Shown here in pieces: positions 192 to 12,281 of a DNA stretch of 35,078 bases (position 1 is the first letter of the stretch; the number at the start of each line of letters is the position of its first letter). The position numbers and the translations under genes were made by a program. The DNA comes from Gemmatimonadota bacterium (GTDB taxonomy: Bacteria > Gemmatimonadota > Gemmatimonadetes > Gemmatimonadales > GWC2-71-9), in contig SHZU01000003.1 of NCBI GenBank assembly GCA_009692115.1, positions 1-35,078 of the forward strand. The letters are read 5' to 3'. Below the pieces are notes generated by a model, which was not told the origin of the DNA, ran no database searches, and worked only from the letters and a program-made list of their open reading frames with translations.

Positions 192-438
192 CAGTCGGAG
201 TTTGTGGGTGATCAGAGGTGGTCGCCGCGTGACTGACGCCAGGATGGCGCCACGACCTGAAAAAACGTTAGGCGGTTACTGTGCCCGTACTGTGCCCGTC
301 CGTGCTTGATTTGGGCACCGCCGGGGCTTGTGGAAAACCTCCCACTACCAGCCATCATGAGCGCGTAACCCCTTACTGGTGTTAGCGTAAGCTCGACACC
401 CAGGCAGTCGGTGTTTGTCGGTGTTCGACGGGTGAATC
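192..438. other. Non-coding stretch left of the tRNA-Leu fragment
   Basis: No convincing gene is visible between the channel gene and the tRNA fragment. The stretch holds one CGTTAGGC octamer (266-273) and two tandem copies of the 11-mer ACTGTGCCCGT (278-288, 289-299). A third copy lies beyond the tRNA fragment. I looked for the 5' half of a tRNA-Leu (acceptor GCTCGGG plus a D arm) immediately upstream of 439 and did not find it. Confidence 0.5.
274..292 (+). repeat. 19-bp direct repeat, copy 1 (left of tRNA fragment)
   Basis: The sequence GGTTACTGTGCCCGTACTG occurs here and again at 528-546, 254 bp apart, on either side of the tRNA-Leu 3' fragment. Copy 1 continues with a second ACTGTGCCCGT unit. 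Short direct repeats flanking a tRNA-derived core are what arm-type integrase binding sites look like. No integrase gene is in the window, so the role is inferred. Confidence 0.6.
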
Positions 439-493
439 GGACTTAAAATCCCTCGGGGGCAACCCCATCCGGGTTCGAGTCCCGGCCCGAGCA
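439..493 (+). tRNA. tRNA-Leu(UAA), 3' fragment only (probable attachment-site scar)
   Basis: The segment folds as the 3' half of a class II tRNA. It has an anticodon loop CTTAAAA at 442-448 with anticodon TAA (444-446), and a long variable arm with a GGGG/CCCC stem (456-459 / 463-466). A perfect T arm follows: CCGGG, TTCGAGT, CCCGG at 469-485. The acceptor 3' strand CCCGAGC (486-492) and discriminator A493 close it; no CCA is encoded. The 5' half is missing: no GCTCGGG acceptor strand or D arm lies at the expected distance. The anticodon stem also breaks down after three pairs (GGA/TCC), so the identity starts at about 439. A 3' half without its 5' half is the usual product of tyrosine-integrase insertion into a tRNA gene. 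It is not a functional tRNA. Confidence 0.75.
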
Positions 494-838
494 TTCGAGT
501 TACGCGTTTTGTCCACATGGGATTTTGGGTTACTGTGCCCGTACTGGTGGGTCGGCCGAACGGTCGGTGCGGTCTCATGGTTCGGCGTCAACATTGGGGA
601 GCCGTTCAAGGCGCTGGTGTACGGGGCGCTCCGTTAGGCGGTCTCGGGGACGATCGATGAGTGACACCTGACCAGCAGCCGGAGCGAGACCATGCCCTTC
701 ACCCCATGGGGAGCGGGAGGCAGCGACCCTCGTCGCCTGGCACCAGCGGACTGGACGTCAGGGCTCAGGAGAACCCCCGGGAAAGCCGGCGCCGGAAGTG
801 TCATCGCAGGATTCGCGCTGCTCACGGTAGTTGGTCAC
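494..838. other. Unassigned stretch between tRNA fragment and IS remnant
   Basis: I recognise no gene in these 345 bases. The stretch contains the second copy of the 19-bp repeat (528-546) and a second non-coding CGTTAGGC octamer (632-639). Open frames exist on both strands, but their sequences look like random high-GC translation. A frame open from 692 runs into the transposase remnant, yet residues before about 839 show no transposase similarity, so the left boundary of the IS fragment is near there. Confidence 0.5.
528..546 (+). repeat. 19-bp direct repeat, copy 2 (right of tRNA fragment)
   Basis: Exact second copy of the repeat at 274-292, 35 bases downstream of the tRNA 3' end. It carries the third ACTGTGCCCGT 11-mer of the region (532-542). 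Confidence 0.6.
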
Positions 839-1834: not shown

Positions 1835-1860
1835 ACTCCATTCCATGAGAGGTGGGAGTC

Positions 1861-2181
1861 ATGCCACGATCCTCACGGTATCCGCCGGAGGTGCAGGAGC
1901 GGGCGGTGCGGTTGGTGCGAGAACAAGCCGGTGCCCATGGGTCGCAGTGGGCGGCGATCAGCTCGATCGCGGGGAAGTTGGGATGTACCGCGGAAACATT
2001 GCGTCGGTGGGTTCGGCAGGCTGAGCGTGATGCCGGCCAGCGCTCGGGCCTGACGACCGACGAGCGCACTCGCGTGACGGCGTTGGAGCGCGAAAACCGC
2101 GAACTGCGCCGGACGAATGAGATCCTCCGCAAGGCGTCGGCCTATTTTGCCCAGGCGGAGCTCGACCGCCGCGGGACGTGA
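1861..2181 (+). CDS. IS3-family transposase OrfA (HTH protein)
   Basis: 106 aa from ATG 1861. MPRSSRYPPEVQERAVRLVRE opens an IS3/IS911-type HTH_Tnp_1 domain. The helix-turn-helix region AISSIAGKLGCTAETLRRWV follows (about residues 32-51), then a leucine-zipper-like coiled coil (ALERENRELRRTNEILRKAS, about 76-95). OrfA binds the IS ends and, when fused to OrfB by programmed frameshifting, directs the transposase to them. GGGAG (1854-1858) lies only 2 nt before this ATG. GTG 1852 is also in frame, but MPRSSRYPPEVQ is the family start. The stop at 2179-2181 overlaps a GTG (2178) that opens OrfB. OrfA itself looks intact, but the element is dead because OrfB is cut off after about 20 codons. Confidence 0.85.
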   Translation: MPRSSRYPPEVQERAVRLVREQAGAHGSQWAAISSIAGKLGCTAETLRRWVRQAERDAGQRSGLTTDERTRVTALERENRELRRTNEILRKASAYFAQAELDRRGT

Positions 2182-2240
2182 AGGTGGCGTTCATCGACGC
2201 CCACCGCACGACGTACGGAGTCGAGCCGATCTGTGCGGAC
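2178..2240 (+). pseudogene. IS3-family OrfB, N-terminal stub
   Basis: GTG 2178 overlaps the OrfA stop (GTGA) and reads KVAFIDAHRTTYGVEPICA, the standard beginning of this IS3 subgroup's OrfB. Similarity stops at about 2240. From there the + strand is the antisense of the PilB/GspE-like fragment, and the frame runs on without meaning to 2372. No catalytic domain remains. The break fuses two truncated genes, so it marks a deletion or recombination junction rather than a simple IS insertion. Confidence 0.8.
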
Positions 2241-2524
2241 GGCGACCGATATTTTCGGGCCAGCGACTCCGGAAGGAGCGTCGCCACCAGGGCATCGAGG
2301 CCGCTCAGGTCGGCCACCGGGACCTTGAACCGGATCGAAATCGTTTCGAGGATCTGGCGGTTGACGGCGTAGCCCCGGGGCACAACGCCGAGCCCAATGC
2401 ACTCGCGCTCAACCGACCTTAGTTCGGTAGCCTGGGCCGGGGTGAGCACGCCGGCCGACACCAGCGGCTCGATCAGCCAGAGATCCTGGGGACCCTGGCC
2501 GGCCGAGGGAGGCGGGGCCGGCAT
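2241..2524 (-). pseudogene. Type IV pilus/type II secretion ATPase (PilB/GspE-like), N-terminal fragment
   Basis: On the - strand from ATG 2524 the frame encodes about 95 residues. They include LVSAGVLTPAQATELRSVER, a stretch ending ETISIRFKVPVADLSGLDAL and then LLPESLARKYRS. This is the pattern of the MshEN/T2SSE_N domain: a two-helix 'learn to read' segment, then hydrophobic 'PxxDLSxLDP...LLPExLARRYR'. That domain precedes the AAA+ motor in PilB, GspE and MshE, where it binds c-di-GMP or couples to the platform. The frame breaks at about 2240, where IS3 OrfB sequence begins; the RecA-like motor domain is absent from the window. Stand-alone proteins with this domain exist, but the abrupt end at the IS junction favours a truncated gene. 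Confidence 0.7.
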
Positions 2525-2648
2525 TTCAGCGGTGATGGATCCGGTCCCCGGGTGGCTCACGAGGTCTTGGCTCGCATAGTTGGTTATTCTTAAGTACTTG
2601 ATGCAGAACGGTCTAGCTAGCGGCAGCCGAAGCCGACCCCGGAGCCTG

Positions 2649-3911
2649 ATGACCCGCTCGACCTTGATTATCGTCCCGGGAGACAAAAGCATTACCCACC
2701 GCGCCCTCCTGCTGGCCGCCATGGCCCGGGGCCCGAGCGTGATCGAGGGGGCGCTGGCCTCGCAGGATGCCCGCTCGACCGCGCGGGTCCTTCGCCAACT
2801 GGGGGCCGGCGTCGGCTCGATGGTGGCCGGCCGCCCGCTCACGGTCGTCGGTCGCGGTCGTCTCCGAACTGCCGCCGGCCCGCTCCACTGTGGCAACTCC
2901 GGGACTACCGCGCGGCTCTTACTTGGACTGCTCTCGGCTCACCGGTTTTCGACCGCGCTGACCGGCGACCGCTCGCTCCGCCGTCGCCCGATGCGACGGG
3001 TCACCGAGCCGCTGTCGCTGATGGGGGCCCGGTTCACGCCGCCTAACGCTGACCGGCTGCCCCTCGAGGTTCGCGGCGGTACCCTCGGCCCCCTCGACTG
3101 GGAGTTGCCGGTGTCGAGCGCCCAGCTGAAGAGCGCCTTGCTCTTCGCCGGCGTCGCCGGCAACGTCCGGGTGGCGGTCCGAGAACCGGCCGGGCTCTCC
3201 CGGGACCATACCGAACGAATGCTCGAGGGCCTCGGCTTTCCGATCGGAACCGAAGGAGGCTGGATCGTGCTGCGCGGCGGTGGTCCGGTGCCTCCCTTCG
3301 AAATGACGGTCCCCGGCGATCCGAGCTCGGCGGCCTTCCTGATCGGCGCCGGCCTGATTGGCAAGCGGGCGGTGACGGTGGGTCGCGTCGGCCTCAACCC
3401 GACCCGGCTGGGGTACCTCGAGGTGCTCCGTCGGATGGGCGCCCGGGTCACCGTGTCGGTCGAAGGCCAAACCCTCGGCGAGCCGTTCGGCACCATTCAC
3501 GCCGAGCCCGGCGAGCTCCGCGGAACGGTGGTCGGGGCCGAGGAGATTCCCCGGTTGATCGATGAAGTGCCGTTGCTGGCGGCCCTGGCCGCCCGGGCGG
3601 AAGGGGCGACCCGATTCGACCAAGTCGGCGAACTCCGGGTCAAGGAGAGTGACCGTTTGGCGCAGATTGCCGGCAATCTCACGACCCTCGGGTACCGTGC
3701 CACCGGGGTAGGGAACACCCTGACCGTTCACGGCAGCGACCACCCACCCCGCGGGCGGGTCACCACCGACGGCGACCACCGGATCGCGATGGCCTTCGCG
3801 GTGCTCGGCACGGTGCCGGGTGCCCGGGTCGTCCTCGACGACCGCGACTGCGTCGCGGTGAGCTTCCCCGGCTTTTTCACCACGTTGGACCGGGCCAGAG
3901 GACGCCGATGA
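2649..3911 (+). CDS. aroA: 3-phosphoshikimate 1-carboxyvinyltransferase (EPSP synthase)
   Basis: 420 aa. Adds enolpyruvyl from PEP to shikimate-3-phosphate, the sixth step of the shikimate pathway to aromatic amino acids and folate precursors, in the cytosol. PGDKSITHRALLLAAMARG is at the N-terminus, with the substrate-binding Lys at about residue 13. GNSGTTARLLLG follows, then SSAQLKSALLFAG, the catalytic-loop LRVKESDRLAQIA and the DGDHRIAMAFAVLG motif near the end. These cover both inverted alpha/beta domains at normal length. ATG 2649 was chosen because GGAG (2641-2644) lies 4 nt upstream and the family motif starts within ten residues. Longer in-frame starts at 2580 and 2601 add unrelated sequence. 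GNSGTTAR instead of GNAGTTxR suggests a class II-like enzyme, an inference. The stop overlaps the cmk start (ATGA). Confidence 0.95.
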   Translation: MTRSTLIIVPGDKSITHRALLLAAMARGPSVIEGALASQDARSTARVLRQLGAGVGSMVAGRPLTVVGRGRLRTAAGPLHCGNSGTTARLLLGLLSAHRFSTALTGDRSLRRRPMRRVTEPLSLMGARFTPPNADRLPLEVRGGTLGPLDWELPVSSAQLKSALLFAGVAGNVRVAVREPAGLSRDHTERMLEGLGFPIGTEGGWIVLRGGGPVPPFEMTVPGDPSSAAFLIGAGLIGKRAVTVGRVGLNPTRLGYLEVLRRMGARVTVSVEGQTLGEPFGTIHAEPGELRGTVVGAEEIPRLIDEVPLLAALAARAEGATRFDQVGELRVKESDRLAQIAGNLTTLGYRATGVGNTLTVHGSDHPPRGRVTTDGDHRIAMAFAVLGTVPGARVVLDDRDCVAVSFPGFFTTLDRARGRR

Positions 3912-8067: not shown

Positions 8068-9578
8068 CCGGCCAACCGATGCAGATCACCAGGGTGTTGG
8101 TTGCCAACCGGGGCGAGATCGCGCTCCGGATCATTCGCGCCTGTCACGAAGAAGGTCTCGAGGCCGTGGCCGTGTACTCCGATGCCGACCGGTCCACGCC
8201 GTACGTCCGAGCCGCCGACGCCGCCGTCCCGATCGGACCGGCGCCAGCGGCGCAGAGCTACCTGCTGATCGATCGGATCATTGAGGCGGCCAAGGCCTCC
8301 GGGGCCCAAGCGATTCACCCGGGGTTTGGCTTCTTGTCGGAGCGGGCGGCCTTTGCCCAGGCGGTGGCGGATGCCGGCCTGGTGTTCATTGGTCCGCCGG
8401 CCAGCGCCATCCGGGCCATGGGCGACAAGACCGAAGCCCGCCGCCGGATGGAGGCCGCCGGGGTCCCGGTCGTGCCCGGCGCCATGGCGGCTCTCGAAGA
8501 CTCGGTCGTCGCCGCGGAGCTCGCCAAGGTGTTAGGCTATCCTGTCTTGGTCAAAGCGGCTGCGGGCGGCGGCGGCAAGGGGATGCGGGTGGTCCGCGCC
8601 GAGTCCGAACTGGCCGGGGCGCTCACCTCGGCCGCCTCCGAGGCCCTGAAGGCATTCGGCGATGCGGCGGTGTACCTCGAAAAGTTCATCGAACGCCCCC
8701 GCCACGTTGAAATCCAGGTCCTGGCCGACCACGAGCGGACTATCCATCTGGGCGAACGCGAGTGCTCGGTCCAACGCCGGCACCAGAAACTGTTGGAGGA
8801 GGCCCCGAGCGTGGCGGTCGATCCCGCCCTGCGGGAGCGGATGGGAACCGCGGCGGTGGCGGCGGCCAAAGCGGTCGGCTACCGAAGTGCCGGCACTTGC
8901 GAGTTTCTGCTGGCCGCGGACGGGTCGTTCTATTTCCTCGAGATGAACACCCGAATTCAAGTCGAACACCCCGTCACCGAATTGGTGTATGGCGTTGATC
9001 TGGTGCGCCAGCAACTCCGGATTGCCCGGGGTCTCCCGATGACCGTGGCGGCCGGCCCCCTGATGCCGCGGGGCTGGTCCATGGAATGCCGGATTACCAG
9101 CGAGGATCCCTCCAATGGATTCCTGCCGTCGACCGGGAGGATTTCTTACCTCCGGGCCCCGGCCGGTCCCGGAATCCGGTGGGACAGCGGGGTCGAGACC
9201 GGTGACGAGGTCACGCTCTATTACGACTCGATGCTGGCCAAGCTGATCGTCCACGGCGCCGATCGCGAGGACGCCATCGTCCGGATGGAACGCGCCCTCC
9301 GGGAGTTGGTCGTCGTCGGGGTCGCCACCAACCAGTCGTTCCACCTCCGGCTGTTGGCCGACCCGGAGTTTCGGGCCGGCCGGATCGACATTCAGTTCCT
9401 CGAACGGCGCCCGGATTTGGCGCTCTCGGCACCAACCGACGACACCATCGGCCGTCTGGCGGTGGCGGCCGCGCTCGCGGAGCATGACCGACGGCAACAG
9501 CAGAAGCCCGCGGTGTCGGTCGATGGCCAGGGCCGGAGCCTGTGGTCGGCCGCCGGTCGTCGCGAGGGGCTGCGGTAG
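8064..9578 (+). CDS. accC: Biotin carboxylase subunit of the acyl-CoA carboxylase
   Basis: 504 aa. ATP-dependent carboxylation of the biotin carried by the partner carrier protein. The N-domain starts [20 protein letters not shown]. The ATP-grasp glycine loop is [14 protein letters not shown] (about residues 165-178), then [21 protein letters not shown] and the catalytic [14 protein letters not shown] (about 293-306). A biotin carboxylase C-domain follows ([20 protein letters not shown]). Stand-alone AccC is about 450 aa and fused PccA about 660. Here the polypeptide stops after a short tail (to [12 protein letters not shown]) with no carrier domain, which is supplied by the separate gene at 10817. 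GTG 8064 overlaps the pccB stop; ATG 8079 is an alternative start five codons in. pccA would be the name by context. Confidence 0.9.
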
Positions 9579-11883: not shown

Positions 11884-12281
11884 CTCCGACTCCCGAACTT
11901 CGCTGGCACGGCGTCGGTCGCCGCAAGACCAGTGTCGCCCGCGTGTATTTGAAGCCCGGCACCGGGAAGTGGGAGGTCAACGGCCGGACGTTAGGCGATT
12001 ACTTCCCGCGTCCGTCGCTGGTCCAGCACATCCAGCAGCCGTTCTCGGCCACCGACACCCTCGGCGCGTTCGACGTCATGGCCCACTGTGACGGCGGCGG
12101 CGTCACTGGCCAGGCCGGCGCCATGCGGCTCGGGATTGCCCGCGCCCTGCTCGCCGTCGACGGCGTCCATCGCACGAAACTCCGGGCCGGCGGGCTGCTG
12201 ACCCGGGACGCCCGGGCCGTTGAACGCAAGAAGCCCGGCCGCCCCGGCGCCCGGAAGCGGTTCCAGTTCAGTAAGCGATAA
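11880..12281 (+). CDS. rpsI: 30S ribosomal protein S9
   Basis: 133 aa. WHGVGRRKTSVARVYLKPG opens the protein, followed by VNGRTLGDYF, GQAGAMRLGIARALL and the conserved basic C-terminus ARKRFQFSKR. That tail reaches the ribosomal P site and contacts tRNA. ATG 11880 overlaps the rplM stop. The codons for LGD include TTA-GGC at 11991, one of the CGTTAGGC octamers. A perfect 27-bp palindrome starts 3 bases after the stop and probably ends the unit. Confidence 0.97.
   Translation: MTPTPELRWHGVGRRKTSVARVYLKPGTGKWEVNGRTLGDYFPRPSLVQHIQQPFSATDTLGAFDVMAHCDGGGVTGQAGAMRLGIARALLAVDGVHRTKLRAGGLLTRDARAVERKKPGRPGARKRFQFSKR

Follow-up and report, generated by a model that had tools for sequence, protein, structure and literature searches.

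A displaced 3' half of tRNA-Leu(UAA) in a Gemmatimonadota genome as the likely attR of a phage-type integrative element

Islander elements are recognized by three features that occur together: a tRNA gene, an integrase gene and a fragment displaced from that tRNA gene (PMC4383910). The fragment has the same orientation as the gene and lies on its 3' side, 2-200 kb away and on one replicon (PMC4383910). At the anticodon-centred site of that survey, site 'A', 3' fragments are the rule (PMC4383910), and a review explains what makes the anticodon loop and stem suitable for tRNA-targeting integrases of this type (PMC8371274). The locus described here resembles the 3'-fragment type at site 'A' (PMC4383910) in having an intact tRNA gene, an adjoining tyrosine integrase gene and a displaced 3' fragment, probably in the same orientation, that starts from the anticodon loop, but it differs in that its repeat includes 53 bp outside the tRNA, among them an element motif, and in that the middle of the element is unassembled. 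On the strength of these sequence comparisons, we consider it highly likely that a phage-type integrative element was inserted in tRNA-Leu(UAA) by tyrosine-integrase recombination and that the fragment is its attR. The arrangement is ordinary and very well known, and this fresh example leaves the general understanding unchanged; what it adds is the position of one end of a mobile element that was divided between two contigs in the assembly, and a separation of element from chromosome within the DNA analysed.

The genome under study (G000) comprises 23 contigs and 3.12 Mb, and the window, the whole stretch of 35,078 nucleotides that was analysed, is C3:1-35078. The displaced fragment occupies positions 439-493 of the plus strand and consists of the 3' 55 nt of tRNA-Leu(UAA): a T arm, the 3' acceptor strand, a class II variable arm and the TAA anticodon loop are present, and the 5' half is absent. 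The anticodon stem reads TCGGA-CTTAAAA-TCCCT and pairs at three positions only, compared with AGGGA-CTTAAAA-TCCCT in the intact gene on contig C12. We rejected the possibility of a complete tRNA at 439-493 because ARAGORN called no tRNA in the window, an Rfam search of the window returned no tRNA reaching the gathering score, and a permissive Rfam scan of 330-620 gave tRNA-Sec as its sole result, scoring 18.2 bits where the threshold is 47. The first-pass annotation, which had described an orphan 3' half of tRNA-Leu(UAA) at these positions, was therefore accurate, down to an anticodon stem that fails after three pairs, and the full tRNA-Leu that it had named as the covariance-model result that would speak against it is absent at the Rfam gathering score.

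The intact partner is a tRNA-Leu(UAA) gene at C12:2474-2557(-), the last 55 nt of which are 100% identical to window positions 439-493. A partner of this kind, matching over the 3' 55 bases and lying next to an integrase gene, had been anticipated, and both the matching gene and the adjoining integrase gene were found on C12. The identity of the 55 bases stood, but the shared block is longer than expected: window positions 439-546(+) match C12:2421-2528(-) over 108 bp with zero mismatches (E = 5e-51), which is far beyond chance. This direct repeat is a candidate att core plus 53 bp past the end of the tRNA. The single other match to the fragment in the genome, at C3:94933 (81%), was rejected as a partner because it is tRNA-Leu(CAA). 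The genome thus contains the whole tRNA gene as well as a fragment displaced from it, as in the Islander signature; the two lie on different contigs, and their relative orientation is as expected provided that C12 and C3 connect in the way seen in congeners.

The integrase gene (C12:1058-2437(+)) adjoins the tRNA gene on the element side, the position that the Islander definition gives it. It encodes a tyrosine integrase of 459 aa (PF00589, 7e-16; phrog_1, 1.3e-44), and the catalytic positions R, K, HxxR, H and Y look intact, as judged by eye beside three relatives. The gene is convergent with tRNA-Leu(UAA), and its last 14 nt and stop codon lie within the 108-bp repeat. Relatives of this integrase in other genomes are found mostly beside tRNA genes, of several kinds, and one viral contig (9.8 kb) carries a related integrase. 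Past the integrase, C12 encodes a 100-aa helix-turn-helix protein that is excisionase-like (phrog_66, 1.6e-8) and a 185-aa small-terminase-like protein (phrog_57, 3.7e-13), after which the contig ends. A search of the bin for a large terminase yielded nothing convincing, with one weak match at C3:66962 (E = 4e-5), suggesting that the middle of the element is missing from the bin; the element may be a prophage, a satellite or an integrative element of another kind. Comparison of the starts of C12 and C3 with other contig ends (the starts of C13-C23 and the far ends of C19-C23) revealed no overlap.

In the mechanism that we propose, a tyrosine integrase, which we infer to be the one encoded on C12, would have recombined the element into tRNA-Leu(UAA), with the anticodon loop as the most likely point. 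The element would have brought a copy of the tRNA 3' half, making the tRNA whole again at attL, on C12 beside the integrase gene, and the original 3' half would have been displaced to the other end as attR, at window positions 439-493. A 19-nt motif, GGTTACTGTGCCCGTACTG, appears to connect the two ends. At up to two mismatches it occurs in three places in the genome and nowhere else: at the 3' end of the integrase gene, at window positions 274-292 and at window positions 528-546. Allowing three mismatches adds one match, which is uninformative because the reversed control pattern likewise gave one. The copy at 274-292 is part of a candidate integrase arm-type site, GGTTACTGTGCCCGTACTGTGCCC (274-297(+); ACTGTGCCC twice), whose 24 nt recur exactly at the 3' end of the integrase gene on C12. 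Two copies of GGTTACTGTGCCCGTACTG would thus lie in the two arms of the element, as arm-type integrase sites would. The third copy (528-546(+)) lies on the side expected to be chromosome. We take the C12 and C3 ends to belong to one element, judging from the repeat, the common motif and synteny rather than from a physical join.

Two congeners, G005 and G002, illustrate how the locus may have looked without the element. In G005, DNA similar to the C12 sequence upstream of the tRNA is also found upstream of an intact tRNA-Leu(UAA), and between this tRNA gene and aroA there are about 6 kb of other genes, whose translations, read by eye, appear to be zinc-finger, DinB-like, LOG-like, PPK2-like, pilin-like and gspE-like. 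In G002, tRNA-Leu lies between these flanks too. No related integrase was found in G005 or G002 at E <= 1e-40, and the element is absent from this locus in both, which are other species. Because the C12 flank and aroA bracket tRNA-Leu in these genomes, it is very probable that C12 and C3 adjoined each other until the insertion occurred. The search for an empty site in close relatives that had been suggested therefore succeeded, albeit in other species, and together with the intact tRNA and the integrase gene these flanks support the earlier proposal of an integrase-mediated insertion that rebuilt the tRNA at one end and left 439-493 as the distal att site. In G002, tRNA-Leu(UAA) itself (L067:9976-10064) is on the opposite strand relative to the conserved flanks, as if locally inverted.

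The sequence to the right of the fragment had been assigned to the original chromosome downstream of the tRNA, and this assignment holds for only part of it. Nothing between 547 and about 2203 is syntenic with G005; the interval contains a weak rve-like stretch, a DUF3047 fragment and an IS3-type OrfA (HTH_Tnp_1; 1852-2181(+); PF01527, 2.3e-12) with an ALIL pseudoknot (2139-2271; RF01497, 69 bits). It consists of debris from IS elements and pseudogenes; the syntenic chromosome begins at about 2204. The first congener-syntenic sequence is an N-terminal remnant of a gspE-like gene (2204-2515(-); residues 13-117 of the 742-aa G005 protein, 41%), followed by the chromosomal flank gene aroA, encoding EPSP synthase (2580-3911(+); PF00275, 8.9e-93), which comes after tRNA-Leu in both G005 and G002. 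The aroA flank is thus syntenic as proposed, but 494-546 contains the element motif and 547-2203 is debris. This rearranged right flank, and the fact that C12 and C3 are unjoined in the assembly, would also fit a relic fragment left by an element that has since been lost or rearranged, with the C12 integrase belonging to a different, later element. We regard such a history as very improbable, given that the two copies of the 108 bp show no mismatch and that the 19-nt motif is present at the integrase end as well as a short way inside the opposite end, at 274-292.

An element of the same design as the one that we propose was found on one contig in G164, a genome of the same order (L121:2003-19641). 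Here, tRNA-Leu(UAA) is accompanied by a convergent integrase gene, the product of which is 44-49% identical to the G000 integrase, and a 3' fragment (52 bp, 94%) lies 17.7 kb further on, in the same orientation as the tRNA; orientation, 3'-side position and distance on one replicon are those of the Islander definition. Within these 17.7 kb are genes for a DnaB-type helicase, a tail protein and a small-terminase-like protein. The two elements share the tRNA gene, a related integrase, a fragment that starts at the anticodon loop and a small-terminase-like gene, whereas the G164 element is contained on a single contig and its repeat stops at the end of the tRNA. For two of the C12 proteins, the 185-aa one and the helix-turn-helix one, BLAST gave no match in the G164 element.

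The different extent of the repeat in G164 bears on the origin of window positions 494-546. The simplest reading is that the site was occupied more than once, so that 494-546 would be an arm remaining from an earlier or tandem element, the body of which has been lost, and the present element would abut this scar. The repeat in G000 running 53 bp past the tRNA and ending in the motif common to both element ends, the debris at 547-2203 and the early stop of the G164 repeat all point in this direction, as does a third genome, G040 (L072:2947-18137), where two 3' fragments in succession come after tRNA-Leu(UAA). In G040, 140 bp (83%) are common to the second and third att-like sites, and the locus looks like a tandem array; no integrase related to that of G000 was found there. 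A 108-bp repeat would also be expected if the natural att core were long and attP had captured it from the chromosome, and we give repeated occupation an even chance against this alternative.

Whichever way 494-546 arose, three genomes of a single order have insertions at tRNA-Leu(UAA), and the displaced fragments in G000, G164 and G040 all start at the CTTAAAA loop or within three bases of it. Crossover therefore probably takes place at the anticodon loop, with positions 442-448(+) of the window as the putative 7-bp crossover region.

To the left of the fragment, the first-pass annotation had placed a K+ channel gene within the element. What is present is only a 192-bp copy of the 3' end of such a gene, at the contig end (9-200(+)), 99% identical (two differences) to contig C2 at about 225278-225469(-), where the K+ channel gene is intact. 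Because window bases 1-8 do not match C2, positions 9-200 may be either a gene fragment in the end of the element or a faulty contig end. The C2 locus was considered as a second copy of the element and rejected, as nothing there matches the C12 end and an integrase-type repeat is absent. The near-duplication of C2 sequence, and the position of the tRNA fragment 439 bases from the contig start, raise the question of whether the fragment is an assembly artefact, in which a copy of the true tRNA locus was joined to the wrong sequence. This explanation strikes us as improbable in the extreme: the sequence to the right leads to aroA, to which a chance mis-join would not lead, and G164 shows the same arrangement on one contig.

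Other tRNA genes show related features. On contig C1 of G000 (L129:3673-3737 and 8458-8522; the locus starts at C1:95000), tRNA-Ile(GAT) occurs both intact and, 4.8 kb away, as a 3' fragment; this fragment begins at the anticodon loop, and a short integrase frame (138 aa read, PF00589) is located beside the tRNA. In G023 (L123:9113-9152 and 12007-12081), a related integrase gene is found beside tRNA-Lys, and the 5' half of the tRNA is duplicated (40 bp, 100%). The duplicate ends at the anticodon loop and represents the rarer 5'-fragment mode within the same integrase family.
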